64,000 nt of DNA from positions 2,232,001 to 2,296,000 of the forward strand of contig NZ_CP015772.1 of the NCBI RefSeq assembly GCF_001654455.1. Direction: 5' to 3'. The notes under the pieces were generated by a model. It saw nothing but the letters and a program-made list of their open reading frames with translations, was not told the DNA's origin and did no database searches. Source of the stretch: Niabella ginsenosidivorans (GTDB lineage Bacteria > Bacteroidota > Bacteroidia > Chitinophagales > Chitinophagaceae). Made by a program: the position numbers and the translations under genes. Below, piece after piece: positions 1,307 through 50,827 of this stretch (position 1 is its first letter; the number at the start of each line of letters is the position of its first letter).

Positions 1307-1394
1307 GACGAGCCGTTTTTAATAAGTTCGATTACTTACTTTTCTTTCTGATCCTTTTTGTTTGCCCAGAAAGGATCGCAAAAAGGGCAGCCGG

Positions 1395-1410
1395 TTCCGA
1401 AATTTCGGAA
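1395..1410. repeat. Perfect 16-base palindrome
   Basis: TTCCGAAATTTCGGAA at 1395-1410 reads identically on both strands. It lies in the same gene-free stretch as the 1283 inverted repeat. It could be a protein-binding site or part of a larger degenerate intergenic repeat; nothing in the sequence decides between these. Confidence 0.6.
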
Positions 1411-1705
1411 GGTTACAGCACAATTCCGGCAGGGCACTACTATCAGCTTTAGAATATAGTGGTGTGTTCCGCCACAATTGACCAACCCGGGAGGGCGGGA
1501 CGCTCGACTTTAGAATTTCTATGATTAGACCCAGGCAGCTTTACAGCTACCCGAAGTTAGGATATTTTGCCCGTCTCCTAAAGGCTAATTACAATTACAG
1601 TTACTACACGCTCCCTGATAATATGAGAAAATAATTGTGTGTACAGCGTAGCTGCGGGTACAGGCAGGAACAAGTGCATACAGCTATACCAGAAAAAGCA
1701 GCATT

Positions 1706-2782: not shown

Positions 2783-3141
2783 AACTAATAAAACAATTTT
2801 TGCAGGTGCCCAAACTTACATGAAATTTTCCAATCCCGGTTTCATAAAAGACGGGATGAGGATTTTATATGCAAGCGAAATTCATTACAGTCCGACAAAA
2901 AAAGCATTGTGTTTTCGGGGAAACCTTTCGGTCTGATTAAAATGTCACTTTCGTATAAGAAATTTTTTCTGGTTAAAACAGCTATACATTTTTCAGGAGA
3001 CGCATATCAGGACTTCTTATCAAGAGCATTTCTCTTTTGTATTAAAAGCTGCCGGCTCTTTATGGCTGTTTATGGCTTTGTGGTATTTAACTCATCCAGA
3101 CAGCTAATTTTTCGTAAATTTCGAGATCAAATAAGCACATT
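2783..3141. other. Divergent intergenic region
   Basis: About 360 bases between the divergently transcribed oxidoreductase and aldehyde dehydrogenase genes; it presumably carries both promoters. A TTTG at 3077-3080 and TA-rich elements at 3105-3122 lie upstream of the dehydrogenase start, but their spacing does not fit the Bacteroidota consensus well, so no promoter is assigned. Confidence 0.5.
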
Positions 3142-4665: not shown

Positions 4666-4680
4666 AATTGTTAAAAAAAT

Positions 4681-4717
4681 ATACGATGCAACGGATCCCT
4701 CATCCGTTACATCGTAT
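4681..4717 (+). terminator. Stem-loop after aldehyde dehydrogenase gene
   Basis: ATACGATG at 4681-4688 pairs with 4710-4717, and the inner ACGGAT at 4691-4696 pairs with 4702-4707, giving a long two-part stem with a CCCTC loop. It starts 15 bases after the stop codon. There is no T-run downstream on the plus strand (an A-run precedes it), so it is either a non-canonical terminator or an mRNA 3' stabiliser. Confidence 0.5.
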
Positions 4718-4821
4718 CCTGAAAGGAAACTGACCCGGAAAAGTATTCTTTAAGAAATTCTTAATACAGGAAGCTTTATTTTCGCGTCTTTTTATTATAA
4801 GAAAACCCAATAATAGAACAC

Positions 4822-6489: not shown

Positions 6490-6507
6490 AAGATTTTTTG
6501 TTATGGC

Positions 6508-6549
6508 AAGAGGCTGTTTCCATATATTTGGGCAGCCTCTTTGGTTTTC
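6508..6549 (+). terminator. Intrinsic terminator after S8 peptidase gene
   Basis: AAGAGGCTG at 6508-6516 pairs exactly with CAGCCTCTT at 6533-6541, followed by a T-rich tail (TGGTTTTC). It sits 18 bases after the peptidase stop codon and separates that gene from the signal peptidase gene. Confidence 0.65.
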
Positions 6550-6637
6550 AGTACCTTCAATTGTTAATTCTGAACCATAAAAGGCCATATTGTAACCCGT
6601 TTACAATAAATTTGTCTGATTAAAATTTTTTGAATCG

Positions 6638-8179: not shown

Positions 8180-8236
8180 ACGGCAGAAGCCGGCAGCACT
8201 ATTTTTATTGAAAATCAGAAAAAATAGTTTAAAAAT

Positions 8237-8267
8237 TTTGCGGGCAATCGTTCAACAACTATATTTG
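8237..8267 (+). promoter_or_regulatory. Bacteroidota-type promoter for tRNA-Asp
   Basis: TTTG at 8237-8240, a 19-base spacer, and TATATTTG at 8260-8267 match the TTTG/TAnnTTTG promoter pattern of the Bacteroidota primary sigma factor. The -7 element ends 25 bases before the mature tRNA 5' end. Confidence 0.75.
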
Positions 8268-8292
8268 CACTCCCAACGGAAAAATGGTTCAA

Positions 8293-8366
8293 GGATCGGT
8301 AGTTCAGTTGGTTAGAATGCCGCCCTGTCACGGCGGAGGTCGCGGGTTCGAGTCCCGTCCGGTCCG
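8293..8366 (+). tRNA. tRNA-Asp (anticodon GTC)
   Basis: The 74-base cloverleaf has acceptor arms GGATCGG (8293-8299) and CCGGTCC (8359-8365) with discriminator G8366, an anticodon stem CCGCC/GGCGG around anticodon GTC at 8327-8329, and a T-arm GCGGG-TTCGAGT-CCCGT. The 3' end is duplicated at 51003-51016, marking this gene as the integration site of the downstream element. The gene stays intact because the element supplies an identical 3' end. Confidence 0.97.
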
Positions 8367-8441
8367 CAAAAAAGGATTATCAGCAATGATGATCCTTTTT
8401 GCTTTTTACCCTACTTTACTTTTAAGGGGCTGACTTTCAAA
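8353..8441 (+). repeat. attL: left direct repeat of the integrated element
   Basis: These 89 bases are identical to 51003-51091. The repeat begins in the T-arm of tRNA-Asp, includes its 3' end and the hairpin behind it, and continues into element-like sequence. Similarity continues less perfectly up to the integrase start. The actual crossover core is likely the tRNA part (8353-8366); the rest is shared because a related integrase relic lies beyond attR. Confidence 0.88.
8368..8405 (+). terminator. Intrinsic terminator after tRNA-Asp
   Basis: AAAAAGGAT, an ATCA/TGAT inner pair and ATCCTTTTT form a hairpin ending in a T-run. It lies 1-2 bases after the tRNA and is present again at 51018-51055 as part of the att duplication. 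Confidence 0.75.
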
Positions 8442-8453
8442 GTCTCATAACAA

Positions 8454-8522
8454 AATCCACTGAGAATCTTTACTACCTTTAAAACAGCTTAACAATTTTA
8501 AAAAGTAGACCAAAAGTAGACC
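8454..8522 (+). promoter_or_regulatory. Candidate integrase arm sites, left inner end
   Basis: AATCCACTGAGAATC at 8454-8468 recurs inverted with one mismatch at 50972-50986. AGTAGAC occurs twice 11 bases apart at 8504-8521, and the same doublet (AGTAGAC-4-AGTAGAC-CT) recurs at 50936-50955 inside the right end. Paired sites one helical turn apart flanking both att cores are what arm-type binding sites of a tyrosine integrase or its directionality factor look like. Function is inferred from position only. Confidence 0.45.
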
Positions 8523-8562
8523 TGATTTCAGGCTACTCAAGTCGATTAAAATTGTTCAGGTT

Positions 8563-9936
8563 ATGTCTCTCCCAATTAAGCTAATTTGTCGAAAAAACCG
8601 GGTTCATGCTGATGGAACCTGCTCCATTTTTGTTCAGTATTGTTGCAATGAAAATCAGAAACCTTTATTTGGAACGGATGTCAAAATTCCACCCATCTAT
8701 TGGGATAACGGAAGCCGCAGTATTAGTGATCGGCTACCTGCAACGCATGGTGATTACAACGAGCTCAATAATGAGCTAAAACGACTGAAAAAAATTGTAG
8801 AAGACATTGTTACCTATGCCGGATTAAAGAAAATTCCAATTGAGGCCCGCGCTGAGTTTACAAAGAAACATTTTTCGCCGACTTTTGACTTTGATGATAT
8901 TGAAGCAAAAGAAAAAGAAGCCGCAGAAAAACAGGAAACCGAAAAGAAGAACAAGCTTAGTGTTTATTATCAATTTGATGAGTTTATAAAATCCAAGAAA
9001 CGGAAGGTAAGTAAAGCCACTCTAACTGTTTATGGTAACGTAAAGTCCCATTTGCTCGCCTTCGAGGAATTCCGTAATCAGCAGATCACTTTTGATAGCT
9101 TTGATTTTAGCTTCTATGAAGATTTTGTGGACTACCTGACGTTTGAGCATGTACATATCCGCAGAAAAACATTGCTGGTCGGGCTTAAATTAAACACTAT
9201 TGGAAAAACGATCAAGCATCTCCGGGGTTTTATTAAAGACCGGGTCAAAAGAAAAGTTATTAAGCCCATCGACCTGTCTGATTTCAGAATACCGGAGGAA
9301 GAAAGCGACGCCATATACCTCACCCATGAGGAGATCGCCAAAATCTACCAAACCGATCTGTCAGAACATCCCCATCTTACAGAGTACAGGGATTTATTTG
9401 TTCTAGCTTGTTTAACAGGGCTGCGGTTTTCAGACTTTTCAACTCTTCGACCAGAGGATCTCCAAAGGGATATGCTCTATAAAAAGCAGGAAAAATCCGA
9501 CCATTGGGTGATTATTCCTTTACGGCACGAAGCAAAATTGATCTTTACCCGTCAGTTCCGCGATCGCATACCAGAGTTGACAAATCCTGAATTTAACAGA
9601 CATATTAAGACCATTGGGAAACTTGCGGGAATTACCCAAATAGTAAAGTTTTCCTACAAAAAAGGCAACCAAACAATAACGGTGACCAAGCCAAAATATG
9701 AGTGGATCACATCTCATACTGCACGCCGTTCTTTCTGTACTAACGAGTTTCTAGCAGGTACGCCGGTTGAGCTCATTATGAAGATCAGCGGTCATAAAAG
9801 AACAAAGGACTTCTACAAGTATATCCGCATTACTCCAGAGGAAGCTGCAATGAAGGTTAAAGAATTATGGTTGGCTCGGAATGATATGAAATTAATTAAA
9901 GAAACGGTATCTGAAATAGAATTGCAATATAACTAA
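8563..9936 (+). CDS. Site-specific tyrosine recombinase (integrase)
   Basis: A 457-residue integrase of the Bacteroidota conjugative-element type. The N-terminal half holds an arm-binding and SAM-like core-binding region (residues about 130-240). The catalytic domain carries Arg288 (TGLRFSDF), His385 and Arg388 (HTARR), His411 (GHK) and the nucleophile Tyr420 (FYKYIRI), a complete set. It lies 122 bases from the att repeat, facing inward, next to candidate arm sites. It should catalyse integration into and, with an excisionase, excision from the tRNA-Asp 3' end. A deleted paralogue lies at 51202-51710 outside attR. The ATG at 8563 is supported because the relic shares the same start region. 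Confidence 0.95.
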   Translation: MSLPIKLICRKNRVHADGTCSIFVQYCCNENQKPLFGTDVKIPPIYWDNGSRSISDRLPATHGDYNELNNELKRLKKIVEDIVTYAGLKKIPIEARAEFTKKHFSPTFDFDDIEAKEKEAAEKQETEKKNKLSVYYQFDEFIKSKKRKVSKATLTVYGNVKSHLLAFEEFRNQQITFDSFDFSFYEDFVDYLTFEHVHIRRKTLLVGLKLNTIGKTIKHLRGFIKDRVKRKVIKPIDLSDFRIPEEESDAIYLTHEEIAKIYQTDLSEHPHLTEYRDLFVLACLTGLRFSDFSTLRPEDLQRDMLYKKQEKSDHWVIIPLRHEAKLIFTRQFRDRIPELTNPEFNRHIKTIGKLAGITQIVKFSYKKGNQTITVTKPKYEWITSHTARRSFCTNEFLAGTPVELIMKISGHKRTKDFYKYIRITPEEAAMKVKELWLARNDMKLIKETVSEIELQYN

Positions 9937-10019
9937 TCCAAATATAATTAATGACGATCTAAAGGGACTTTGTAATTCATGATTGAACGCCGCATCCCAA
10001 ACTTTATTACTTTTAATAT

Positions 10020-10583
10020 ATGAAAAAATTATGTGCTCTCTGCATTGCCCAAACACTGCTGTACGCAACCAGCATTGCTCGGACCCCAAATGAAAAGACA
10101 GACCGCTATCTGATAACACAGATGAAACAGAAGCAGATTCCCGGTCTACAAATTGCAGTTATAAAAGGAACCTGTGTGGTTTTCTCCGCTTCAAAAGGAA
10201 TTGCCGATGTGGCTTTTAATATTCCGGTAAGCGATAGTACCATTTTTTCGATTAATTCTATTGCAAAGATCTTTGCTGGCGTAGCATTAATGCAACTAGT
10301 CGAGGAGGGCAAAGTTCGTCTCAATGATCCTATAGGACGCCACGTAGACAGCTTGCCTCAAAGCTGGCAGAGTATTACACTTAGACAACTGATGGAACAT
10401 GTATCCGGCCTGCCAGATGTTGAAGATGATCGTACTGGCGGACCAGTTGGCGGGCGTGGAGAAGATAGCGCCTGGAAACTGGTACAACGCCTGCCGCTCC
10501 TGGCTAAACCGGGAGAAACTTTCAACTACATGGCTACGAACTATCTTCTGATCCAGAAGGTGATCGAATTTTCTGATAGATAA
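10020..10583 (+). pseudogene. Truncated class C beta-lactamase-like serine hydrolase
   Basis: The 187 residues start with a plausible signal peptide and show the serine hydrolase SxxK motif as SIAK (about residue 82) and LMEHVSGLP, typical of class C beta-lactamase-like esterases and peptidases. Full-length relatives have about 350 or more residues. Here the frame stops just after NYMATNYLLIQKVIEF, where the family continues, and the second tyrosine motif is Y-M-A instead of the usual Y-S-N. The stop is 7 bases from the end of the convergent gene, so a deletion junction is likely. Activity is not expected. Confidence 0.75.
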
Positions 10584-10590
10584 TTTATTG

Positions 10591-11814
10591 CTACTTCAAC
10601 AGTTTTTTTAAAGCCTCAAAATCAAAATATTCCGTAAAATTGTTTAGAATTCTAAGAGAAGAAGGTATAGTTACATACCGGAAGGCAACTGTTATTAACT
10701 GTGGAGTAGCGGCACCTACGTTGTTTCTCTTGAAATAATCGGGATTTATTTTATAAAGTGGCTGGCTTTTGTCTTCCCTATCATAAAATCTCCAAAACCG
10801 ATTGTAATTAGTTTTCTCTTTTAGCTTTGCTTTGTAATTTTGCGAAGCATCCTCTATTTTGTTTACGACAGCTTGCTGCTGCAGCCATTCATCTTTCTGT
10901 TCACTTAGCGCTTTTTTTACTTTGCCTATTTTATCGGTTACATCGGCTTCCCAGTTTCCATAATTATGTTCAATACCTTTGTTGTGATTGGAGCTTAATT
11001 CTGAAATCAGTTTTGGAAAATATAATTTTTCCCTTTCGTAATATTCTAAAAGACTTTGCAAATATTCTTTTCGGCTTACCGGAACTAAAACAGGAACATC
11101 TTTTTTCTTCACAAACCAATAGCGATAAATAAAATTATTTCGGTTGTTGGGTTTGATGTCTTTTTCGGCCACATCCTGGAAATATTTTTTTCCGGAGTTA
11201 ATGGCGTCAATCAACTGTTCATTATTACAGTAAAAATAATTGAACAACCGGATTAACGGATCATTTACATTAACGGGCTTATGATTTTCCCAATCCAGGA
11301 ACTGAAAACCAAAGTCATATTCCCCCAGGCTGCTGCCAAAGGGATAATCTAAAAAACGACTAAGTGTGTTGAAGGGAATAGCATTTACATAAATCCGCAA
11401 AATGGTTCCGGCTTCGTCGTTACGTTTCAGTTTACCATTCAGGCAAAAAAACTCGTGCAGCGAAGCTTCAAAGCTGTATTGTCCCAGCCTGGTATTGCCC
11501 AAATAAGCGTATCCTTTTGTTGAATAAATATTTTCCCAATTACCGCCGGTGAGGGTAAGACTGACATGCGTTTTCGCTTCAATATTTTCTATATCGGCTA
11601 ATATCTTTTTAACCATAGCTTTATCCGGCGCGGTGACCATATTTTTGAAATATTCAGCCTTTACAGCAGGCCAGGGATATTGTGCGGCAGGTTGGTATTT
11701 TCCCGGCATCGTTTCCACCTCGGCGCTGGTTTTGCAGTCTTGTGCGTGGGCAGTAGTGGATAATAGCGCAACAGGTATTATTGCACCAATAAATATTTTA
11801 TTCATGACGTCCAA
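10591..11814 (-). CDS. Secreted protein of unknown function
   Basis: A 407-residue protein with a signal peptide (IFIGAIIPVALLSTTAHAQ) and otherwise no recognised domain. It is rich in aromatic and charged residues, with a predicted helical, lysine/glutamate-rich stretch around residues 255-330. It is probably the last gene of a three-gene minus-strand unit with the TPR protein (38-base gap) and the lipocalin-like protein upstream. Its end abuts the truncated hydrolase. The neighbouring histidine kinase and regulator suggest it is part of an envelope module under their control, which is inference. It could act with the TPR protein at the periplasm or surface. Confidence 0.7.
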   Translation of the reverse strand: MDVMNKIFIGAIIPVALLSTTAHAQDCKTSAEVETMPGKYQPAAQYPWPAVKAEYFKNMVTAPDKAMVKKILADIENIEAKTHVSLTLTGGNWENIYSTKGYAYLGNTRLGQYSFEASLHEFFCLNGKLKRNDEAGTILRIYVNAIPFNTLSRFLDYPFGSSLGEYDFGFQFLDWENHKPVNVNDPLIRLFNYFYCNNEQLIDAINSGKKYFQDVAEKDIKPNNRNNFIYRYWFVKKKDVPVLVPVSRKEYLQSLLEYYEREKLYFPKLISELSSNHNKGIEHNYGNWEADVTDKIGKVKKALSEQKDEWLQQQAVVNKIEDASQNYKAKLKEKTNYNRFWRFYDREDKSQPLYKINPDYFKRNNVGAATPQLITVAFRYVTIPSSLRILNNFTEYFDFEALKKLLK

Positions 11815-31572: not shown

Positions 31573-32001
31573 ATGGAGAAAACAATACATCAGGGCAGAA
31601 ATGTGAAGCGATTCCGGGAAATGCTGGGTATAAAGCAGGAAGCGTTGGCTGCTGATTTGGGTGATGACTGGAACCAGCGTAAAATATCGCTGCTGGAACA
31701 AAAAGAGGTAATAGAAGAACCTTTATTACTGCAAATTGCCGATGTATTAAAAGTGCCCGTGGAGGCGATTAAGAATTTTGATGAAGAACAAGCCGTGAAT
31801 ATTATTGCCAATACATTTCATGATAGTGCAGTAGCTAACACTTTTACCGAAAATTCACAAGCTAATTTTCATTGCACTTTTAATCCCATAGATAAATGGG
31901 CCGAAGAAATTGCCGAAAATCGGAAATTGTACGAGCGCTTATTGCAGGCGGAGAAGGAGAAGATGGAGTTGTTAAAGAAACTGCTGGAAAAGGTGAAGTA
32001 G
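31573..32001 (+). CDS. XRE-family helix-turn-helix regulator
   Basis: A 142-residue DNA-binding protein with an XRE-type helix-turn-helix at residues 8-65 (NVKRFREMLGIKQEALAADLG, then KISLLEQKEVI). A C-terminal helical segment rich in Glu/Lys (residues 110-142) probably oligomerises. A TATCTTTG at 31532-31539 is a good -7 element, 33 bases before the start. It precedes the Shedu-like gene by 36 bases on the same strand and most likely regulates it. Confidence 0.85.
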   Translation: MEKTIHQGRNVKRFREMLGIKQEALAADLGDDWNQRKISLLEQKEVIEEPLLLQIADVLKVPVEAIKNFDEEQAVNIIANTFHDSAVANTFTENSQANFHCTFNPIDKWAEEIAENRKLYERLLQAEKEKMELLKKLLEKVK

Positions 32002-32037: not shown

Positions 32038-33297
32038 GTGATTAACTTCTTAGAACGCGATAATAGACTTCTATTTTTCTATCAGCCTGAAGACAAGGAA
32101 TATAACTGGATTAGCGAACGTTTAAAGGCAGACGGAAATGTGCATGTAAAACGCACATTTTTTTTTACTGAAGAAGATGTCATTAAAGAAGATATTGATG
32201 AGGAATTTGTAGATGATTCTCTTTCGGATATTGAACCGGAAGGAATATACCTCTGGTTTGGTGATTTAGAAAATGATTATTACAAAGTAAAGCGCGGCAT
32301 TCTTACAAGTGCTTTTGATATTTACCTGCATAAAGACATAGAACTCAAACTGGGCTATTTTGTGGCAGATGCAAATGCTTCAATTTTTAATGCGATTAGT
32401 AAGATATCTAAGTTGGATTTTTATTTGGGAGGCCCCCATCAAACTGCTGTTCCAATTGAAGATTTTGAAAAACTGACCAGATACTTCCCTACATCTTACG
32501 AACGAAAAAGGTATGTCGAAGCCCGCATAGCAACTGTATTGAGAAATTATCTGGACAACGTAAAAGATGCCGAACAAGTCTACGAGCGGTATATGAATAA
32601 AAAGTTGTCCAAGGAAGGCTCAAACTTGTCTAAAATATTTAAAGATACTGAGCTATACAAATATCAGACAATCTATAGGAAGCTGGAAAGCATGCTTATG
32701 GAAGAAACTCAGTACAACGAACGGCAATGGCAACAGGAAATATTGCAGATCATTCTATTGATTTATCCTAAATACATTTACGTTTTCAAAGAAGTCAAAA
32801 TAAAAGCCGGAATTGCCGGGGATGTGAGAGAACGATTTCTTGATCTTCTGTTAGTGGACTGTAACGGTAACGTGGATATTATCGAAATAAAACGACCGTT
32901 TGAAAAAGCTATAATGACTAATGACCATTATAGAAACAATTTTATCCCGTTACGAGAGCTGTCGGGTGCTGTTATGCAAGTTGAAAAATACGTATACTAC
33001 CTTAACCGATGGAGCGAGGCTGGTGAAGAATATTTGAATAACACATATAAAAATGAATTACCAAATGGGTTCGATATTAAAATAACCAATCCCGGTGGTA
33101 TAATTATTATGGGCCGGGAGAATAACCTCACATCTGAACAAAAGCGGGATTTTGAAGTGGTCAAGCGCAAATACAAAAATGTCGTCGATATAATCACCTA
33201 TGACAATCTATTGGAAAGACTCAAATTCACTATCGATCAGATTAAAAAAGGAGAGTATAAAATAAATTGTGTAAATAGATTAAGCAACTGCATTTAG
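32038..33297 (+). CDS. Shedu-type (DUF4263) nuclease, defense protein
   Basis: A 419-residue protein with a GTG start at 32038, 36 bases after the XRE gene. The C-terminal nuclease domain has a PD-(D/E)xK pattern, D269 (FLDLLLVD), E283 and K285 (IIEIKRPF), with a downstream Q314 (VMQVEKY), as in Shedu SduA proteins, which protect against phage by DNA cleavage. The N-terminal 230 residues would be the sensing or regulatory region. The last codons and the stop lie inside the IS256 terminal repeat, so the natural C-terminus was replaced by about ten residues. The core motif is intact, so it may still be active. Confidence 0.75.
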   Translation: MINFLERDNRLLFFYQPEDKEYNWISERLKADGNVHVKRTFFFTEEDVIKEDIDEEFVDDSLSDIEPEGIYLWFGDLENDYYKVKRGILTSAFDIYLHKDIELKLGYFVADANASIFNAISKISKLDFYLGGPHQTAVPIEDFEKLTRYFPTSYERKRYVEARIATVLRNYLDNVKDAEQVYERYMNKKLSKEGSNLSKIFKDTELYKYQTIYRKLESMLMEETQYNERQWQQEILQIILLIYPKYIYVFKEVKIKAGIAGDVRERFLDLLLVDCNGNVDIIEIKRPFEKAIMTNDHYRNNFIPLRELSGAVMQVEKYVYYLNRWSEAGEEYLNNTYKNELPNGFDIKITNPGGIIIMGRENNLTSEQKRDFEVVKRKYKNVVDIITYDNLLERLKFTIDQIKKGEYKINCVNRLSNCI

Positions 33298-34499
33298 AGG
33301 CGGCATCTGTTGTCAAAGATAGTTAAGAACTGCTGGAGTATGAACCCCCAATTTTGGATGGGCATACTCCATTTTTTTTCGATATTAGTAATAGCCATGT
33401 AAACAGCTTTTAAGGCGGCCTGATCATCGGGGAACTGTACTTTTGTTTTTGTATATTTTCGGATGCCCCGGTTCAGGTTTTCGATGGTATTGGTGGTGTA
33501 AATGATTTTGCGGATTTCCAGCGGAAAATCAAAATAGCTGGTAAGACAGTCCCAGTTGTTGCGCCAGGCCTCGATGGCGTGGCGGTACTTATGCCCCCAT
33601 TTTTCGGATAATTTTTCTAAAGCAGCTTCTGCCGCATCCCGATTTACAGCCCCATAAACGTCCTTTAAATCAGCGCAGAAGGGCTTTCTGTCTTTCCATA
33701 CCACATACTTGCAGGAGTTGCGGATCTGGTGTACCACACAGAGCTGGGTTACCGTATCAGGGAATACCCCTTTGATGGCATCTGTAAAACCTTTGAGATT
33801 ATCAGTGCAGGCGATCAGGATATCTTCCACGCCCCGGGCTTTTAAATCGGTTAGTACGCTCATCCAGAAAGAAGCTGATTCTGTTTCAGCCATCCACATG
33901 CCTAAAACTTCTTTCAGTCCATCGTTTTTCAAACCAATAACCAGGTAAATGCACTTGTTGATATACTTGCCATTCTGCTTTACTTTCAGTACAATACCGT
34001 CCATCCAGACCGTATAATACACTGCTTCCAGTGGCCGTTGCTGCCATTCTTTGATGTGCTCTATGATACGATTGGTGACATTAGAAATGGTGCCTTCACT
34101 CACATCCACACCATATACCTGCTTTACTTGTTCAACGATATCGGAAGTTGTCATTCCCCGGCTATACATGCCGATAATGGACTCTTCAAGCTTATCGCTC
34201 ATGCGCTGCCCTTTAGGTATCAACTGCGGCTCAAACTCGCTGTTACGGTCTCTGGGAATGTTGAGCACCATATCGCCCAGCGACTGGGTTTTTACCTTTT
34301 TGGGGTAGGTGCCGTTACGGCTATTGCCGGTATTGTTGCCATCTTTGGCATGCTTCTCATAACCGAGGTGGCTATCAAGTTCGGCTTGTAACATCTGCTC
34401 TACGCCCTGTTTGTAGAGCTCGCTAAAAAATGATTGGAAATCTTCTTTGCTTGTAAATTGCTTTAAGAAATCTTTGGGTAATTTGTTGTCCTGTTCCAT
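33294..34499 (-). CDS. IS256-family transposase
   Basis: A 401-residue Mutator/IS256-type DDE transposase. The acidic triad is visible: Asp in YYTVWMDGIVLKVK, Asp in DILIACTDNLKGF and Glu in IIYTTNTIENLNRGIRK. Length is normal and the frame is intact, so it may be active. The N-terminus contains AELDSHLGYEKH, typical of the family. It occupies nearly the whole IS and its stop overlaps the end of the Shedu frame by 4 bases. Confidence 0.95.
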   Translation of the reverse strand: MEQDNKLPKDFLKQFTSKEDFQSFFSELYKQGVEQMLQAELDSHLGYEKHAKDGNNTGNSRNGTYPKKVKTQSLGDMVLNIPRDRNSEFEPQLIPKGQRMSDKLEESIIGMYSRGMTTSDIVEQVKQVYGVDVSEGTISNVTNRIIEHIKEWQQRPLEAVYYTVWMDGIVLKVKQNGKYINKCIYLVIGLKNDGLKEVLGMWMAETESASFWMSVLTDLKARGVEDILIACTDNLKGFTDAIKGVFPDTVTQLCVVHQIRNSCKYVVWKDRKPFCADLKDVYGAVNRDAAEAALEKLSEKWGHKYRHAIEAWRNNWDCLTSYFDFPLEIRKIIYTTNTIENLNRGIRKYTKTKVQFPDDQAALKAVYMAITNIEKKWSMPIQNWGFILQQFLTIFDNRCRL

Positions 34500-34547
34500 A
34501 AAACTGTATTTAAAGTTAAAAAATCCGGGCTAAATCGCCGGCCGCAA

Positions 34548-34610
34548 CCCGGCAGGTTCGCTTCGTTCGGCTCCGCTACGCTCCGCCTCACTTCGCTTCA
34601 CCTGCCCGGG
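34548..34610. repeat. Hairpin with short-repeat loop inside the IS
   Basis: CCCGGCAGGT at 34548-34557 pairs with ACCTGCCCGGG at 34600-34610 with one bulge; the loop consists of CTTCGCTTC- and CTCCGCTACG-like short repeats. It lies between the transposase start and the right IS end, where it could block read-through into the transposase. Confidence 0.5.
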
Positions 34611-34689
34611 GGTTAACTCTCGAATACAGTTACTTAATATTTATTTACACAAAGAACTAAACACTACCTAAAAAACTATAAGACCCATT

Positions 34690-37116
34690 TCAAGTAAATT
34701 TAGGCCCCTTTTCTAAATTTTCAGGTTCCTGATTCGCACCAGGTTTTAACATGGCAAGGTGTCTATTATCAAACAATTCTGGAGCTAGTCTACAACCAAG
34801 TATGCTATATGGATAATGATTTTTATCCACATTCATCCCGATTACTACTACGCCTTTTGCATCATTTGCCTTTTTATCATCAAGAATATCGTAAATAATA
34901 TCGTCACGGTCTTTACGTAAATGATTATGATACCCGTAACCAGCAATAACAAATTGCCTATCCTCTTCAGCGGTTTCGAGCAAAATCCAGTTATGCGGGT
35001 GTTCTGCAATTCCTTTTAGCATTTTATTCTTCATTTCGTTGATAAATATTTCGAATTGCTTTTGAATATCGATAGATGCATTAAGCAAAATGTATGATAC
35101 CTCAAGCCAGGGTTGAGGTTTTTTCTCTTCCAGCCGGTATAATATATCCTTCCACCACTGGGTTTTCAATAACTGGGGTTTAACTACGGGTTCCTTATTC
35201 GCGGCACCAATAATGTAATTATCGAGCTCTTTCGCCTTCAAATCCATTTTAAAGAAGTCGTATTTTTTCATATCGCTACCTAAGTTAAAGCCATCATCGA
35301 GGTACCATGCCAAAAGATCCAATTCGTCGCCAATATATTCAACACTAGCTTCCATCTCGCGTCTACGCTGCAAATAATGAATTTTCTCTGCTGCCAACGG
35401 CAACAAATCAAACACCACCTGAAGATCCGTCAGGCTTATGGACGGAGCCAGTTTTTCAATAGGCTTATCTGTTACCCCGGCTCTAATTAACTGTTTAAGA
35501 TTGCTGCTTAGCATACCCAGATGGGATAAAGTTACTCCAAGAGGTATAAAATACTTAAGTGAAGAAGCATTGAACTTGTTATTAGGGCCTTTTTTGACTT
35601 TCAATGATAACTCGGCTGGGTTATCCTTCAAAAATTCTATAAATCGCAATGCCTGTTCTGAGGGCTCTTCAATGAGTTCCTGTAAGGTCTTAAATAAACG
35701 TTCTGGCGCACCTCGTTTTGCCGGCGCACTTACTAATCCGGCCTTAGCTTCCACTACAAGCGCAAACTTATCTACAATTACCAGTAGATCGTTTTCATAC
35801 TCTTTCCCATCATCCCCCTTCCATTTACTTCCCCGAAATATTTGTGCCATTGGGAAAGATTCTTTAAAAAGAAGAGCCACCTGTTCTTCAAGGTAAAAAG
35901 CTCTGCTGTCATTGTGTTTTTTTCTTAATTGCTCATCTCCGGCACAGAAATTTTCTAGTAAACTAATACTTAAATGAGTCATAATAGTCCATAAAGAGCT
36001 AAAGACACTATTGCTATCAATTAAAATAAATGGCTTTTCATGAACGGGGTTGTTAAGTAAAAAATATTCCTCATTATGATCTGCCAATTGGCCAAATTGT
36101 AGGCTGATTTCTCCGAAAATATACTTTAACTTTTCCGACGCTATTAAGCCATTTGAATAATCCTCCAGTGTTTTAAAATCAAATGTGAAAATCTCATCAA
36201 GATAAATATCCGAATGCATTAAAAACATTCCTTTAAGCTGTTGTAGCTTTTTACCAAATTTTTTCCAAATTTCCTCACGCTGTTCTGGAGTTGTTTTGCC
36301 AACTGGAAACTGACATTCATAGGCCTCCATCATTTTTATATAATTCTTCTGGTTTATAACTTCAGCAGTTTTTCGCATATGGACATTTATCCGTTCTTCA
36401 ACCACGTCAGCCATTTTATATATCAATTTTAGAAAAACAACTGGATCAAAGCCGTGATGATCGATAAAGGAATCTCGAATTGCATGAGCTAAGTCCAATG
36501 TAACAGATTCCATTTTATGTTTATAGGACCAATTTCTGACAGCAGTGGTATTAATCATCATTTCCATTCGCAACAAATGGAATGGAATTTCATCAGGGTT
36601 TTCAACATTCTCAAAAAAGGCATAGTATTTATATTTATTGAGCTCACAAGCAGTTTTAATGTCACTTTTGAACTTTTCTACCTCACTCGAAAATGGTTGC
36701 TGGTAATACGTCCTGGGGAGCGTTAGAGAAAATGCCTGAAGAAGTTCTTGATAATAGGGTGGAAAGTCTAAAGTACCGGTAACCGCTTCCTCATCGTATC
36801 CTGAAAATGACGTCATAAAATAATACATAGAGAAAGAGAGTAACTGCAACTGATCATAATTTTTGAACCAGTTTTGAATGGCTTTAAATTTCGCAGGAAA
36901 CTCTACTGTAGCCTTGCGCCCAATTTCTTTAATAACTGCCAATCGGTCTTCAAACGTCGTTTCAGTAGCTCCTTCGTTAAACGAAGCTTCAAAATATTTC
37001 ATTTTGATCGGATCGGGAGCTACGCCAGGGGCTATGTTTTTTGCCGAAGTTTGGTTGTGGGAAGATTTGGTTTTAGTTGAAATACGTTTTTTCTTCCTTG
37101 TTCTACTTCTTGGCAT
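34690..37116 (-). CDS. Large PD-(D/E)xK nuclease-like protein, candidate defense effector
   Basis: An 808-residue protein without signal peptide. A basic N-terminus (RTRKKKRISTKTK) is followed by about 370 helical residues with no recognised domain. Residues 408-460 form a nuclease-like core: E411 (LEEQVALLF), D443 (YENDLLVIVD), then E456 and K458 (LVVEAKAG), the PD-(D/E)xK arrangement of restriction-type and repair nucleases. The C-terminal 350 residues are again unassigned. It lies right after the IS256 end and is the last gene of a minus-strand group with a small membrane protein (87 bases upstream) and the GHKL-nuclease gene. Its family is not recognised; the defense role is inferred from neighbours and motif. 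Confidence 0.6.
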   Translation of the reverse strand: MPRSRTRKKKRISTKTKSSHNQTSAKNIAPGVAPDPIKMKYFEASFNEGATETTFEDRLAVIKEIGRKATVEFPAKFKAIQNWFKNYDQLQLLSFSMYYFMTSFSGYDEEAVTGTLDFPPYYQELLQAFSLTLPRTYYQQPFSSEVEKFKSDIKTACELNKYKYYAFFENVENPDEIPFHLLRMEMMINTTAVRNWSYKHKMESVTLDLAHAIRDSFIDHHGFDPVVFLKLIYKMADVVEERINVHMRKTAEVINQKNYIKMMEAYECQFPVGKTTPEQREEIWKKFGKKLQQLKGMFLMHSDIYLDEIFTFDFKTLEDYSNGLIASEKLKYIFGEISLQFGQLADHNEEYFLLNNPVHEKPFILIDSNSVFSSLWTIMTHLSISLLENFCAGDEQLRKKHNDSRAFYLEEQVALLFKESFPMAQIFRGSKWKGDDGKEYENDLLVIVDKFALVVEAKAGLVSAPAKRGAPERLFKTLQELIEEPSEQALRFIEFLKDNPAELSLKVKKGPNNKFNASSLKYFIPLGVTLSHLGMLSSNLKQLIRAGVTDKPIEKLAPSISLTDLQVVFDLLPLAAEKIHYLQRRREMEASVEYIGDELDLLAWYLDDGFNLGSDMKKYDFFKMDLKAKELDNYIIGAANKEPVVKPQLLKTQWWKDILYRLEEKKPQPWLEVSYILLNASIDIQKQFEIFINEMKNKMLKGIAEHPHNWILLETAEEDRQFVIAGYGYHNHLRKDRDDIIYDILDDKKANDAKGVVVIGMNVDKNHYPYSILGCRLAPELFDNRHLAMLKPGANQEPENLEKGPKFT

Positions 37117-37203
37117 AGATTTTTTTTATTTAAGGACTTCGAATGAATACGGCTTAATTTTGTAATTACGCAAACGACATTTTAAAATAGTGGGAACCCA
37201 AAC

Positions 37204-37629
37204 TTATTTTTTTTGAGTATTTATGGATGAGTTCTGGAAACGAAGCCAAATAACATTCCCCTTAATATCCGAAAGTCCTAGTTTCTTACGCAAGTCCTTC
37301 CTTAAGCTATTAATTAAGGGATCTAGTTCAAAATGCCTGTTTTGAGCTGCATCTTTGGCTAGTTGATGTGCCAACATTATTTGTTCCTCAGATCCGAAAA
37401 GCTGTATATCGGTAATAATGGACTCCAGCTGCCTATTTTCTACATTCTCGCGATGTGAGATTTCCTCAGCTAATACGCGGTAAGCTTTTATCAGATGATC
37501 AAGGGATATATCTCTGCGTTTAGCGATCCGATCTCTTCTATTAGTAAAATAATGTGCTGCTGCCCAGCCTCCAATAACTAAAAACGTCCCTATTGAGAAC
37601 TTGATAATATCTGCCGCTGCGGATTCCAT
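37204..37629 (-). CDS. Small membrane-anchored protein of unknown function
   Basis: A 141-residue protein with a single N-terminal membrane segment (FSIGTFLVIGGWAAAHYF, residues 12-29) followed by a basic, helical cytoplasmic portion (RRDRIAKRRDISLDHLIKAY). No family is recognised. Anchored small proteins of this shape occur next to nuclease effectors in some defense loci and could place or restrain a complex at the membrane, which is inference. Gaps are 127 bases from the GHKL gene and 87 bases to the PD-(D/E)xK gene, same strand. Confidence 0.6.
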   Translation of the reverse strand: MESAAADIIKFSIGTFLVIGGWAAAHYFTNRRDRIAKRRDISLDHLIKAYRVLAEEISHRENVENRQLESIITDIQLFGSEEQIMLAHQLAKDAAQNRHFELDPLINSLRKDLRKKLGLSDIKGNVIWLRFQNSSINTQKK

Positions 37630-37756
37630 ATTGTTATTGATTTTATGAGGAGTAAGCTTTAAAATCTATTTTCTAAGTACTAAAAATCTTTGTCGTAATT
37701 GCAGTTTGATATTTCTTTCTACGAAATGAAGGGGAGTATGATATTTATCATCAGCA

Positions 37757-39811
37757 TTATTTTACAAATCGTAATTGAGCAGATGTTTTCTCTGTAATTA
37801 ATTCAGAATATTCAGTCTCAAATTTCTCATTTACGGTCTTGTCCTTTATTTTTAGCTGATTTGACAAGTAGCCTAGTTTTCGTTTGTTCTGCTCAATCAG
37901 CTCTGCCCACTCCATTACATAAACTTCAATATTTTTTTCACTCTTTTTATCATATAAAAATGGCTGATCAGGAGAATTGGATCTTCTCGATTTGACTTTA
38001 GATTTGGCAAATTTTGTCAGCTTAGAAGATATTAGCAGTAGCTTATATTTGACCTTATTGGCAGGCAAACCAGAATGCTGTTCAATAGTAAAGGCATATC
38101 TGTCAATTTGATTAAGTTCCTTTTCACTTATTGCGCATTTGGGAGCTTTCAATTCCACAATCATAATTTCTCTCTCATCAGCGTCGTTTACCTTTTCATT
38201 CATAAAAAACAAATCAGTAATATCGTCAGGTGTTCCTTCATCGTTTATCAAGTTTTCGTCTTCTTCAGTAGGCTCATAGTTGAAATGCTTATCTCTTAGT
38301 TCCTTCAAAATATTACCTATTTTTTTATCAGACCAAAGGTGTGGTGTCCCGTTATAGTTTTCGCCAAATACCCACAACTCATTTTCAACTATTTTATGTA
38401 GTTGGCTGCGTTCCTTCAAGCATTTAGAAATCTCCCCATAAGTAAGTTCATGAAGAAAATAAAGAAACTCCAATTTGTTTGCAACGAGATTTGCAAAATG
38501 AACAACATCTTCAATGTCCGTCTTATCCAAAAGTGTTCTGAATTTTTGAACATTGTCATCCGACATTTTTAGGATTTTCCGAAAAATATATTCTATGTCT
38601 CCGTTTAATATCGATCTATCTAAAAGCGGGTAAAGAAAAGTTCGGATAGAATCATTTTTCCGAATTAAAGCATGTTCCTCTTCGATTAAGTACGCAGCCT
38701 TTTTAAATATGATTTCCTGAGCTTTAGAGGCCGGAGCCTCTTCTTTGTATGGGTAATACTTGTCTTTCTCTAGTTCGATTAGGAATTTCTCAAACTTTTT
38801 GTTTCGAGATTTAAAAAAATCGTTAATGGTATTTTTGATATTTTCTTTTACACCCTTAACTTCTTCTTCACCCAAAGATTCAATATCTAAATTTCTAAAT
38901 AAATCACTATTGAAAAAGTCGGATTCGATATAGACAAACCAGGTACCCAAATCAGGGGTATACCAGTCGGAAGAGTAAGTATATTCATGAGCTACACTTT
39001 TAATTCCGGCATTGTCTATCTGAAAAAACACTTTTACTTTATTTAATGAAGATTTTATATTGTAGAAGTAAAGTTTTATCTCATGACTTCTGCCTTTTTT
39101 GTCGGTGTGAGGTATAACTTTTTTTATAGGCAAATCAATTAAAAACTCATCCCGTTTTACTGCTTCTCCGTTTACATGAAACTTTACTTTGCTATGGAAA
39201 ATTTCATAAGGATAATTTTCAAAAATTGATTGTCGAATATTTTGAAGCAAGAAATTTTGGGTTATTAAATTTCGTCTTGCCGGTTTGGGTTTAATATTAT
39301 GATGAAGATTTTGTATGGTTACTTTGTAATAAGTATTGGCTGGCTGTTCTAAATATTCGTAGTCCACTTTAAATTCAGTTTGCTCCAACTGAGCATCTCT
39401 AAAGTCTGTGGTGTCTATACCGAAAGTGGTTTTTGAAAATTGTTTTTTCTTTTCATCATAAGCAATCGTTTCAATATGCATTAATTCCCCAATCTGAAAA
39501 GAACTAAATCTGCCAATTCCTTGTCCACTTTGTTTTGCTGTTGTCCCAATCTCCAATATTTTATTGTCAAAATCTGAATAAGAAACTCCATGTCCATCAT
39601 CGGATACTATTATTTGCTTAATGCCAGATTTAGTAAACACATCATCTGTATAATCTATTTCTATATATACATTTTTTGCATTGGCTTGAAGTGAATTATT
39701 GATGAGCTCTTTCAGAGCCGCGAAAGTATCGCTATAGTTAGTAAGGAGATCCTTTATTACTCTGGAATTGGTCGTTATTTTCTTGGTTACTGTTGTCATT
39801 GTAAAATACAA
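37757..39811 (-). CDS. GHKL ATPase fused to a C-terminal nuclease-like domain
   Basis: A 684-residue protein. The N-terminal HSP90-like ATPase domain shows the N-box E35/N39 (ALKELINNSLQAN), the G1 motif DDGHGV (residues 71-76) and the glycine lid SGQGIGRFSSF (95-105), as in MORC- and MutL-like ATPases. The C-terminus (residues 465-600) looks like a PD-(D/E)xK fold: E477 (IVENELWVFGE), D533 (ITDLFF), E553 and K555 (IVELKAP) and Q568. Such a protein could use ATP-driven clamp closure to activate DNA cleavage; this is inference. The start could also be the ATG at 39799. It follows the DUF4145 gene by 32 bases. Confidence 0.7.
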   Translation of the reverse strand: MYFTMTTVTKKITTNSRVIKDLLTNYSDTFAALKELINNSLQANAKNVYIEIDYTDDVFTKSGIKQIIVSDDGHGVSYSDFDNKILEIGTTAKQSGQGIGRFSSFQIGELMHIETIAYDEKKKQFSKTTFGIDTTDFRDAQLEQTEFKVDYEYLEQPANTYYKVTIQNLHHNIKPKPARRNLITQNFLLQNIRQSIFENYPYEIFHSKVKFHVNGEAVKRDEFLIDLPIKKVIPHTDKKGRSHEIKLYFYNIKSSLNKVKVFFQIDNAGIKSVAHEYTYSSDWYTPDLGTWFVYIESDFFNSDLFRNLDIESLGEEEVKGVKENIKNTINDFFKSRNKKFEKFLIELEKDKYYPYKEEAPASKAQEIIFKKAAYLIEEEHALIRKNDSIRTFLYPLLDRSILNGDIEYIFRKILKMSDDNVQKFRTLLDKTDIEDVVHFANLVANKLEFLYFLHELTYGEISKCLKERSQLHKIVENELWVFGENYNGTPHLWSDKKIGNILKELRDKHFNYEPTEEDENLINDEGTPDDITDLFFMNEKVNDADEREIMIVELKAPKCAISEKELNQIDRYAFTIEQHSGLPANKVKYKLLLISSKLTKFAKSKVKSRRSNSPDQPFLYDKKSEKNIEVYVMEWAELIEQNKRKLGYLSNQLKIKDKTVNEKFETEYSELITEKTSAQLRFVK

Positions 39812-39843
39812 AAAATGATTGTGAATCTGAAAGTAGTATACAT

Positions 39844-40521
39844 TTATTTTACCTGCATTTTTCGATCAATGGATTTTTTCAATGCTTCAATTTTTGATGG
39901 AGCAACGTAAACATATTCCAGCATTGCAATTAAGAAGTCTTTCATAGCTCTAACCTCTTCGATATCTATTTGATAACTCACATCATGTGCTCCTATGTTG
40001 CCTAATGTTCTCAGCGCATCCGCCATTTTTGCCAAGTTGGCCGGGATGATATTTTTTGTTGCTAAATCGGTTATCTGCTCCTTTAGATTTCTACCAGCGG
40101 CCTTCTGATCCTTACATAATAATTCCAGCGACTTTCTAATTAATAGAGAAAAGGCTGTAAACGATACCTTCTCAACTTTTAAAGCTTCATTATATGTTTG
40201 TTGTATCTGTATAGGAATATGATCGGTCAATGTTCTTATTACTGGATAGCACAGTGTTGCTTCAGTAATATATCCTGGATGTTCATCAAATTCGGTGTCA
40301 TAGAAAAGAGAAATACCGCCACAGGTTTTATATCTTGTTAAATAATAAGAGCATTCAATCTCAATTGTTTCAAATGGATTGACAGTATTATATCCTGTTG
40401 ATGTTGACTCCGCTTCACAAAGCAAAAAATGACCCGCTTTATTACCGCAGTGAGAACAAGCCAATATCAATTCAGCAGTTACTTTTACTTTCTTCATTTT
40501 GGGTTTGGTTTGTATCGGCAC
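39844..40521 (-). CDS. DUF4145-type protein with zinc-ribbon-like N-terminus
   Basis: A 225-residue protein. An N-terminal C-x2-C (ACSHCGNKAG) plus later cysteines suggest a zinc ribbon. The C-terminal half matches the DUF4145 helical pattern (LLIRKSLELLCKDQKAAG, then DALRTLGNIGAHD). DUF4145 proteins are common near restriction-modification and other defense genes; the domain is HEPN-related. It sits between HigA (22 bases) and the GHKL-nuclease gene (32 bases), all on the minus strand, so it is probably transcribed with both. Confidence 0.75.
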   Translation of the reverse strand: MPIQTKPKMKKVKVTAELILACSHCGNKAGHFLLCEAESTSTGYNTVNPFETIEIECSYYLTRYKTCGGISLFYDTEFDEHPGYITEATLCYPVIRTLTDHIPIQIQQTYNEALKVEKVSFTAFSLLIRKSLELLCKDQKAAGRNLKEQITDLATKNIIPANLAKMADALRTLGNIGAHDVSYQIDIEEVRAMKDFLIAMLEYVYVAPSKIEALKKSIDRKMQVK

Positions 40522-41002: not shown

Positions 41003-41335
41003 TTAATAATCGCTTCTTGTGTATTGTTCATCATTTGCACATAACTTATCATACTGTGCATGTGTACCAATCCAGCAAATGAATAAATGCATTTGTTTAT
41101 CTCCAAACGCATATTTGCCAATCATCCTGTATTTATTACCACCAATATCAAATACCACTCTGTTGCTGCCATTGCCCAGCAAATCAGCACTGGGAAATGT
41201 GGCTGAAATATCCGCCGGATTGTCCCAATCTCCATACTTTACTTTTATAAGCCATTCTGCAAATGAGGCCCTGCTTTGGGCATTGTGTCTTACAAAATCT
41301 TCTATGGTTTCTTTTCTTATCAGGTGGACTTTCAT
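41003..41335 (-). CDS. higB: HigB-type mRNA interferase toxin
   Basis: A 110-residue HigB-family toxin: the segment FAEWLIKVKYGDWDNPADI, SNRVVFDIGGNKYRMIGKY and the LFICWIGTHAQYDKL C-terminal pattern are typical of this RelE-like fold. It cleaves translated mRNA. It is the first gene of the minus-strand block including HigA. The ATG at 41335 gives the normal N-terminus MKVHLIRKETIEDFV. The frame is intact. Confidence 0.88.
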   Translation of the reverse strand: MKVHLIRKETIEDFVRHNAQSRASFAEWLIKVKYGDWDNPADISATFPSADLLGNGSNRVVFDIGGNKYRMIGKYAFGDKQMHLFICWIGTHAQYDKLCANDEQYTRSDY

Positions 41336-47074: not shown

Positions 47075-47767
47075 CTACATGCGGAAGCCTCTTTTCTTTT
47101 CGGGTGGATCGTTCCGGATACGATTTTGCTTCATGGCTGGGAAGATTTTTTGAGTAAATTCGAGTGCCTCTTGCAGTCGCTGTTTGGTTGCTTCCCAATT
47201 GAATGACAAATAGGATAACCGTATTTCATCATTTAAATTGACCCCAGATGTATCTGTTAGGGCCATGCGTGCCACAGCCGCCCTGGAATGAGGAGAATAT
47301 TTTTCTTCGTATGCGGCATACATTTCTGCCAACGGCATTTTCTCCAGCAAAAAACAGATATCTACAAAATCTTTTAATCGGCTTCCACTTCGAACGATAG
47401 CGTGAAGTTTCATTGCAGCAATATCTGATAGTGACATTATTCTAATGCCGTCTATTTGATTATGGGGAGATACTTCAGGATAAGGATGGGTAATAAGATC
47501 TACTTTGACCTGGTCAATAAAACAAATCAGGCTACTTTCCCGCGGTTTCACTTCCTCTGCATAGTATACTGATTTTAGGTGATTGGCGATTAAGGCTGCA
47601 TCAAATGAATCAAAAGCAAATAAATCGATATCAACCGACAAGCGGTGGCCAATTGTAAGTGCAAGTGCCGTACCGCCTACCAACAAAAAATCATTAAGTT
47701 GGGGATCGGCCATCAGCCGTTTGATTAAAGCCAGGGTATTTTCTGAGACAGTTTGCGTTTGTAACAT
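47075..47767 (-). CDS. AbiEii/AbiGii-like nucleotidyltransferase toxin
   Basis: A 230-residue protein with the nucleotidyltransferase motif LLVGGTALALTIGHRLSVDIDLF (residues about 26-48 in parts), including GG and DxD, and a later KLHAIVRSGSRLKDFVDI typical of AbiEii/type IV toxins. It would modify a nucleotide or tRNA and stop growth. It overlaps the end of the upstream DUF6922-like gene by 43 bases in another frame. The MLQTQTV start is the normal one for this family. Confidence 0.88.
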   Translation of the reverse strand: MLQTQTVSENTLALIKRLMADPQLNDFLLVGGTALALTIGHRLSVDIDLFAFDSFDAALIANHLKSVYYAEEVKPRESSLICFIDQVKVDLITHPYPEVSPHNQIDGIRIMSLSDIAAMKLHAIVRSGSRLKDFVDICFLLEKMPLAEMYAAYEEKYSPHSRAAVARMALTDTSGVNLNDEIRLSYLSFNWEATKQRLQEALEFTQKIFPAMKQNRIRNDPPEKKRGFRM

Positions 47768-49705: not shown

Positions 49706-50827
49706 ATGAATAAGCTGATACTAATAGGGAATGGCTTCGATCTGGCGCATGGGATGAAGACCAGTTATAAGGATTTTTTATTGAATCTTTTGCGAACCTG
49801 TGTAAACGAAGCTCTGGATAATGGGATTCATTCAAGCTCCGATTTTAAGATAAAAAGTAAAATCGGTTTTTACGAGAAAGAAGACATTAAGGCCGTCATT
49901 AATAGTCCCGAAAGCTGTGAAACGGTGTTTAATGCTTTTGCTGTAGACGACGTTTTGGTTTCTACAAGTGGCGAAAAGCCCCAGAAGGAGTTTGATGCGC
50001 AGTGCCTGAACCCGGTATTAAGAAAAGCAATAAACTCTTGTTTTAAATTGGGGTGGGTCGATATTGAACAAATATATTATGATGAACTGATACACATTGC
50101 ATCTTCTGATGCCGGTAGCTATGATAAAAAACTAAACACATTGAATAGCGGTATTGAAAGCATAAAAAAGAGCCTGCATAGCTACCTGAAAGGACTGCCG
50201 AAACCTATCCATAATAAATTTATGTATGATGTTTTTGCAGCGCCTTTTAGTGAATCAGAGTTTCTAACCGATTCTCCAGATCTTAATAAATGTGATCATA
50301 TTCTTATGCTTAACTTCAATTACACGTATACCCCTGACCTTTATATTCGGGATCTGGTTCCGCAGTTTGAGAACAATCCGTTGGTTGATTCTATTCATAT
50401 TCATGGGGAATTATATAAAGATGAAAACCCGCTAATCTTTGGATTTGGGGATGAGATGGATGATCATTATAAAATTTTAGAGAAAAAGAACGATAATAGG
50501 TTCCTTGACAATATGAAGTCCTTTGGTTATTTTAGAACAGACAACCTTCGTAAACTATCACGATTTTTAATGGAAGGTGAATACCAGGTTCAGATAATGG
50601 GGCATTCATGTGGGCTATCTGACCGGGTGATGCTAAATGGTATATTTGAGCATGATAACTGCCGGTCGATTAAGATATTTCATCGTCGCAAAGGAAGTCC
50701 TTTTGAGGAGACCAACTATAAAGAACTAACGCAAAATATATCCCGCCACTTCAATAAAAAACAAAGAATGAGGGATTGGGTTGTCCCTTATAGGCCAGAC
50801 GACTTTTTACCGCAAGTGGTCTCTTAA
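49706..50827 (+). CDS. abiH: AbiH-family abortive infection protein
   Basis: A 373-residue protein beginning KLILIGNGFDLAHGMKTSYKDFL, the AbiH family signature, with a later MLNFNYTYTPDLYI, IHIHGELYKDENPLIFGFGDE and MGHSCGLSDRVML, all typical. AbiH proteins cause abortive infection by phage through an unknown mechanism. It is the only gene at the extreme right of the element, 176 bases from attR, on the opposite strand to most neighbours. Related AT-rich repeats lie before (49654) and after (50869) it. Confidence 0.9.
   Translation: MNKLILIGNGFDLAHGMKTSYKDFLLNLLRTCVNEALDNGIHSSSDFKIKSKIGFYEKEDIKAVINSPESCETVFNAFAVDDVLVSTSGEKPQKEFDAQCLNPVLRKAINSCFKLGWVDIEQIYYDELIHIASSDAGSYDKKLNTLNSGIESIKKSLHSYLKGLPKPIHNKFMYDVFAAPFSESEFLTDSPDLNKCDHILMLNFNYTYTPDLYIRDLVPQFENNPLVDSIHIHGELYKDENPLIFGFGDEMDDHYKILEKKNDNRFLDNMKSFGYFRTDNLRKLSRFLMEGEYQVQIMGHSCGLSDRVMLNGIFEHDNCRSIKIFHRRKGSPFEETNYKELTQNISRHFNKKQRMRDWVVPYRPDDFLPQVVS

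Follow-up and report, generated by a model that had tools for sequence, protein, structure and literature searches.

Proteins of the paraMORC3 type were described in 2008 by Iyer, Abhiman and Aravind and carry an S5-fold domain after the GHKL domain (PMC2292703; this and the other papers are cited here for excerpts). VcSduA, a GHKL-type Shedu protein of Vibrio cholerae, protects against phages as a single gene, and a change in its ATPase site (E27A) and a change in its nuclease site (K557A) both abolish protection (PMC12137116). Proteins of this kind had previously carried the annotation paraMORC3, and their membership of Shedu, the classification of which (type I-D) is relayed by the same paper, has been proposed (PMC12137116); paraMORC relatives with other domains are covered in PMC8011034, and PMC13190303 was judged to be unrelated. 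Here, we analysed a window of 64,000 nucleotides from Niabella ginsenosidivorans (NCBI RefSeq assembly GCF_001654455.1, contig NZ_CP015772.1, positions 2,232,001 to 2,296,000 of the forward strand), which contains a block of four genes for a DUF4145 protein, a GHKL ATPase with a C-terminal PD-(D/E)xK nuclease domain, a protein of 141 amino acids (aa) and an 808-aa protein. An earlier note on this DNA had proposed that the four genes form one defence system. We consider it likely that the block instead consists of cargo genes that a mobilizable defence island acquired independently of one another. The GHKL protein among them would most likely be a paraMORC3-type nuclease that suffices on its own against phages (or plasmids).

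The four consecutive minus-strand open reading frames (ORFs) described in the earlier note are present, and the GHKL and DUF4145 domains were confirmed by Pfam. The GHKL protein matches HATPase_c_3 (E=3e-17) as well as HSDR_N_2 (E=3.9e-5), the latter with 24.1 bits and hence just under the cut-off of 25; among 44 aligned members picked from the window and 77 other GHKL loci, 44/44 match HATPase_c_3 and 42/44 match HSDR_N_2 at E<=0.1. Chance is no explanation for the Pfam domain matches in the block and its neighbours. We determined residue conservation in 71 relatives with a length of 600 aa or more, six of the 77 loci being excluded for a shorter ORF. The ATP-site residues E35, N39, D71, G73, G75, G98, G100 and R101 are kept in 71/71 relatives; in the nuclease domain, D533, E553, K555 and Q568 each occur in 70/71 and E484 in 69/71. 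These numbers refer to the 684-aa form of the protein; judging from the 83-84% identical relative in locus L049, the start codon is probably the ATG at 39799. In total, we conclude that both active sites of the GHKL protein are conserved.

With paraMORC3, the GHKL protein shares an N-terminal GHKL domain with intact ATP motifs, a restriction-type C-terminal domain with E-D-ExK residues, assigned from motifs, and its occurrence in Bacteroidetes, often (in a subset) as a standalone gene (PMC2292703). The earlier note did not recognise the combination of genes in the block; the GHKL-nuclease architecture, however, had been published in 2008 as paraMORC3. With VcSduA, it shares the order of a GHKL ATPase followed by a PD-(D/E)xK nuclease in one protein, a likeness of architecture, and E35 and K555 would be the counterparts, in position and motif, of residues E27 and K557 of VcSduA. 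By analogy, the GHKL protein probably works like VcSduA: the GHKL domain would dimerise the protein upon ATP binding, the middle domain would clamp DNA, and the C-terminal PD-(D/E)xK domain (D533, E553, K555, Q568) would then cut invading DNA, resulting in protection. The ATP-gated clamp with a nuclease suggested in the earlier note is, in this form, supported within the single GHKL protein but not as a design of four genes.

To determine whether the block genes travel together, we searched for them in genome samples that were subsets with one genome per species, and in 77 GHKL loci (3.4-20 kb), 66 of them from Bacteroidota, that were drawn from the best 80 of 397 confirmed relatives. Homologues of the DUF4145, 141-aa and 808-aa proteins were found in 0/77 of these loci, an absence that covers the DNA of these loci. 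Similarly, HigA and GHKL were absent within ~1.5 kb of DUF4145 in the 11 DUF4145 loci outside the window (12 fetched), and none of the four viewed plasmid records, from 41 with a GHKL relative, lists a DUF4145 protein nearby. At the level of genomes, GHKL was detected in 10/195 family genomes (E<=1e-10) and 5/295 class genomes, and DUF4145 in 10/195 family genomes (E<=1e-5), in each case including the genome of the window, which was the only one among the 195 to have both at the thresholds used. GHKL and the 808-aa protein are found together in the genome of the window (G000) and in G372, where separate contigs carry them and the 808-aa match is weak (4.9e-8). Finally, 58 GHKL loci extend for 3 kb or more to both sides of the gene and have an ORF of 600 aa or longer; in 34 of them, neither side has a gene in the same direction within 100 bp, in agreement with the standalone subset of paraMORC3. 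We conclude that the GHKL gene travels without the three neighbouring block genes.

These observations bear directly on the proposal that the four genes are one system, in which GHKL would gate two nucleases, the 141-aa protein would serve as membrane anchor and the DUF4145 protein as RNase effector. The genes are consecutive and on one strand, with gaps of 32 bp (DUF4145 to GHKL), 127 bp (GHKL to the 141-aa gene) and 87 bp (141-aa gene to the 808-aa gene), and none of the terminator-like sites (16 found versus 7.4 expected) is a minus-strand site in the gaps of the block. Promoter searches were at chance level (31 sites versus 28.5 expected in the general scan, and three versus 3.15 for the Bacteroidota-type pattern). 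However, adjacency of the block genes was not found in any other genome: no other locus was found with even two of the four genes (0/77 GHKL loci, 0/11 DUF4145 loci and 0/2 loci of close 808-aa relatives), and the two plasmid relatives of the 141-aa protein adjoin recombinase or hypothetical genes. The co-occurrence check proposed with the four-gene system thus went against it, as far as sampled, and we consider such a system highly improbable.

In 6/77 loci (L070, L074, L104, L105, L111 and L137), GHKL adjoins a conserved run of conjugation-type genes, which by eye we take to be tra genes. Locus L061 carries an 808-like gene (8488-10395) where L070 (9001-11049) and L104 (9004-11040), the two of the six loci covered by this comparison, carry GHKL. 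L061 has 14 genes matching L070 and 13 matching L104; the matching genes lie to either side of the insert and are 51-98% identical, 11 and 10 of them, respectively, above 75%. Because the same slot of these related, conjugative-type elements holds either an 808-like or a GHKL gene, the two nucleases substitute for each other as cargo, an argument for each acting on its own. Within 4 kb of GHKL, the most frequent neighbour family is a short helix-turn-helix (HTH)-like protein (7/77 loci), followed by the conjugation-type genes (6/77). Plasmid relatives of GHKL lie beside restriction-modification genes, one of them with Drt2 nearby. GHKL genes 83% and 39% identical, in L068 and L122 (L049, L053), both lie between sigma-factor-like and FecR-type genes, as judged by eye, an unusual insertion site to be used twice.

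A search of PDB with the GHKL profile gave 28 matches at E<=0.1, mostly MutL/PMS proteins (MutL/PMS2 best, E=2.3e-6) followed by MORC2 (E=0.005) and Hsp90, together with one molybdopterin subunit that looks like a chance match. Since MutL and PMS2 are the solved structures most similar to its ATPase domain, the GHKL protein could be a MutL-like protein of DNA repair or housekeeping rather than of defence. Such a role is difficult to reconcile with the patchy spread in family and class genomes, with the six loci that adjoin the same conjugation-type gene run, with the plasmid relatives near restriction-modification genes and Drt2, and with the antiviral activity of VcSduA (PMC12137116); we therefore regard it as very improbable. 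In PHROGs, the GHKL protein matches phrog_6203, of unknown function, over nearly its entire length (E=3.2e-37), which says only that phage-encoded GHKL relatives exist; a single-protein query of viral contigs gave no GHKL relative.

Several observations weigh against a self-sufficient GHKL protein of the VcSduA type. Pfam SduA_C gave no match in the GHKL protein of the window, matched 1/44 aligned members (E=0.026) and, at E<=0.1, matched 0/10 proteins from a second GHKL branch; moreover, the PDB search with the GHKL profile returned no Shedu structure at E<=0.1. With respect to neighbours, a gene in the same direction lies close to GHKL in 24/58 loci (14 upstream, 14 downstream, four of these on both sides), and in L014 a helicase/methylase/ATPase operon ends with the GHKL gene (49% identical). 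On two of the four viewed plasmids, toxin-antitoxin genes other than HigBA are found within some kb of the GHKL relative. HigBA divergently adjoins GHKL (56% identical) in L050 and lies 1.7 kb from GHKL in L133, the one of the 77 loci with HigBA nearby, where the GHKL ORF is split. In the window itself, the HigB-HigA-DUF4145-GHKL genes are on the same strand and spaced by 12, 22 and 32 bp without a terminator-like site, and are thus operon-like here. Given the close neighbours in 24/58 loci and the L014 operon, not every GHKL member need act alone. The L014 run (244-10719), which encodes an SNF2-type helicase, a type IIG-like methylase, an SMC-like ATPase and the GHKL-nuclease, is possibly a larger restriction-type system.

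In contrast to VcSduA, SduA_C/DUF4263 is unrecognised by Pfam in the GHKL protein, and the PADLOC Shedu models likewise miss it, matching 1/44 aligned members (E=0.023). Comparison of profiles with hhalign gave a probability of 86% (E=4.8e-6, score 46.2) for the C-terminal domain of the GHKL protein against six Shedu proteins and of 55% against three; as controls, 40 column shuffles scored at most 25.1 and the reversed profile scored 12.9, and the 808-aa core and the N-terminal part of the GHKL protein reached probabilities of 0.7% and 0.2%, respectively, against Shedu. In a FastTree phylogeny of 28 sequences with midpoint rooting, the GHKL protein of the window belongs to a clade of 15 (support 0.979); the other 13 sequences form a second clade (support 1.0), which comprises four plasmid relatives, two Firmicutes-type metagenome-assembled genomes and seven genomes of the window's class. 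For a profile of ten members of this second branch, namely the four plasmid relatives plus six proteins of the window's class, the probabilities were 51% and 29% with the two sets of Shedu proteins and 100% (E=9.7e-46) with the branch of the window. The Shedu SduA protein encoded in the window has a distant profile likeness to the nuclease domain of the GHKL protein but, unlike it, no GHKL domain by Pfam. Altogether, these comparisons suggest that the nuclease of the GHKL protein is likely a distant relation of Shedu. Assignment of the protein to Shedu itself was rejected because SduA_C is unrecognised, and we filed it as paraMORC3-type.

The tight spacing in the window, the gaps lacking terminator-like sites, and the HigBA genes that adjoin GHKL in L050 and lie in its vicinity in L133 are also the grounds for an alternative, in which HigB, HigA, DUF4145 and GHKL would be a co-transcribed unit with the toxin-antitoxin pair guarding or regulating the effector, a role that an HTH protein may have with Shedu and GHKL elsewhere. 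A candidate regulator beside GHKL recurs: relatives of the HTH protein encoded upstream of Shedu were detected by phmmer upstream of GHKL in L080 (9e-48, 8547-8954), L015 (3e-41, 10764-11192) and L091 (3e-15), and a pair of a RelE/ParE-type toxin and an HTH protein is present in the plasmid neighbourhood of GHKL in L010. However, HigB occurs in 24/167 family genomes (E<=1e-15), that of the window included, and DUF4145 and GHKL were absent within ~1.5 kb in the 27 HigB loci besides that of the window (28 fetched, several of which end at a contig edge). Moreover, HigB and GHKL are on different contigs in G350 and G372, and HigBA is placed differently with respect to GHKL in the window, L050 and L133. 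We conclude that a HigBA-DUF4145-GHKL unit is unlikely, and that HigBA is probably a separate toxin-antitoxin pair beside an independently acting GHKL protein.

The 808-aa protein is weakly NERD-like, with a match to NERD (PF08378) at E=0.13 and 13.2 bits versus a cut-off of 22.1; its relatives in L018 and L019 reach E=4e-4 and 6e-4 (21.4 and 20.7 bits), likewise below the cut-off. These sub-threshold matches lie over the catalytic region, and in the 808-aa protein the match spans residues 410-497 only, leaving ~400 N-terminal and ~300 C-terminal residues outside. From the core E411/D443/E456/K458 named in the earlier note, D443, E456 and K458 are invariant in 8/8 aligned sequences, own included, as are E441 and Q488, but E411 falls outside the invariant columns. 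On this basis, the protein is likely a nuclease, and probably one separate from the GHKL protein. It was detected in 9/195 family genomes (E<=1e-5), own included, and in 3/295 class-wide and 6/348 order-wide genomes (E<=1e-12). The other three block genes are not alongside its closest relatives, L058 (43%) and L159 (42%). Plasmid relatives were found in eight records, the best in Salimicrobium (31% identity over 81% of the query), and the three records viewed have different neighbours. A profile search of PDB with the 808-aa family gave no match at E<=0.1, its alignment found no relative in viral contigs, and phage records contained no 808-aa relative. We tentatively propose, as a possibility that we rate below even, that the 808-aa protein is the founding member of a family, so far undescribed, of large defence nucleases that each work as a single gene. 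Such proteins would have a NERD-like PD-(D/E)xK core and long flanking sensor regions, would reside in conjugative-type elements of Bacteroidota as well as in plasmids from other phyla, and would share a cargo slot in alternation with genes for GHKL-nucleases. Within the block, the strongest defence candidate is the GHKL-nuclease, and the least known is the 808-aa nuclease.

The 141-aa protein had no Pfam or PADLOC match at E<=1. The earlier note had called it membrane-anchored; one hydrophobic N-terminal stretch is present, but its best 19-residue Kyte-Doolittle mean of 1.38 is modest, which is weaker than claimed. Among the 195 family genomes, the protein was detected in that of the window only (1/195, E<=0.001). 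A relative with 64% identity is encoded on a plasmid of Dongshaea marina (L153:6950-7354), beside a recombinase gene, and another with 36% on a Burkholderia plasmid. The 64% relative on a gammaproteobacterial plasmid and the absence from the 194 other family genomes point to transfer between phyla.

The DUF4145 protein matches Pfam DUF4145 (E=3.2e-17) and positions 47-177 of 211 of the PADLOC model PD-T7-4 (E=2.3e-12), a model without a given curated cut-off. The similarity to PD-T7-4, a system selected in Vassallo et al. 2022 (PMC9519451), is at the level of the model only. DUF4145 proteins belong to the HEPN superfamily (PMC3710099), and BxaP is another defence protein with DUF4145 (PMC10799925). 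We conclude that the DUF4145 gene is probably a separate single-gene module of HEPN type. Chain OA of PDB 9y9c, a structure with 24 DUF4145-protein chains, weakly matches the product of 39844-40521 (E=0.001). HigB and HigA in turn resemble PD-lambda-2: HigB and the HTH half of component B match its models in PADLOC, HigA covering positions 3-116 of 402 of PD-Lambda-2_B. However, HigA ends before the peptidase part described in PMC9519451, and the third component had no match in the ten window proteins scanned. Assignment of HigBA to PD-lambda-2 was rejected because component B is without its peptidase half.

IS256 and Shedu adjoin the block on one side, HigA and HigB on the other (Table 1), which bears out the reported location of the block between Shedu and HigBA, with the IS256 copy separating Shedu from the block. 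The inverted-repeat arms of IS256 (33267-33280 and 34639-34652) are 93% complementary, and the last ~10 codons of SduA (33267-33297) lie inside the IS256 end, so that the insertion probably altered the natural C terminus of SduA. Shedu had no relative in viral contigs. A Shedu-type HTH gene is near 3/77 GHKL loci (L080, strong; L091; L075, weak), and one HTH family upstream of Shedu here and of GHKL elsewhere could mean a shared regulator of two defence nucleases. The region of ~30-51 kb contains genes for a HEPN protein, Shedu with its HTH protein, IS256, the block, HigBA, a DUF4172-Fic protein, a relaxase, NikA-like and primase-like proteins, AbiEii and AbiH; the Pfam and PADLOC matches thus support the defence-type gene content already suspected, and the natural reading of the region is a mobilizable defence island. 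The GC content of the four block genes is 0.33-0.39, compared with 0.42 for the whole window and 0.396 for 30.1-51 kb.

Table 1. The four-gene block and surrounding features, in positions counted from the first nucleotide of the window
Feature	Positions	Strand	Matches and remarks
HTH gene upstream of Shedu	31573-32001	plus	phmmer relatives also upstream of some GHKL genes
Shedu SduA	32038-33297	plus	PADLOC SduA E=1.5e-149; Pfam SduA_C E=7.6e-39; PDB 8ps4 E=1.6e-79
IS256 element, between Shedu and 808-aa gene (ends inferred)	33267-34652	minus	Transposase E=5e-129
808-aa protein gene	34690-37116	minus	NERD-like PD-(D/E)xK core (D443, E456, K458); probably a separate module
141-aa protein gene	37204-37629	minus	No recognised family; N-terminal hydrophobic segment; separate gene
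GHKL ATPase with C-terminal PD-(D/E)xK nuclease, 684 aa	37757-39811	minus	paraMORC3-type, VcSduA-like architecture
DUF4145 (HEPN-class) protein, 225 aa	39844-40521	minus	Similar to PADLOC PD-T7-4
HigA antitoxin-like HTH protein, 148 aa	40544-40990	minus	PADLOC PD-Lambda-2_B E=3.4e-22
HigB toxin-like protein	41003-41335	minus	Pfam HigB_toxin E=2.3e-24
AbiEii-type nucleotidyltransferase	47075-47767		Same island
AbiH	49706-50827		Same island

The result keeps a false multi-gene system off the list of defence systems. It also draws attention to a mainly Bacteroidota branch of GHKL-nucleases that is missed as Shedu-type by the Pfam and PADLOC versions used, although the VcSduA architecture is proven antiviral. 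Moreover, it provides a second single-gene candidate, an unnamed large nuclease with a relative in the same cargo slot. Finally, the alternation of GHKL and 808-like genes in one slot suggests a route to further defence genes of Bacteroidota.

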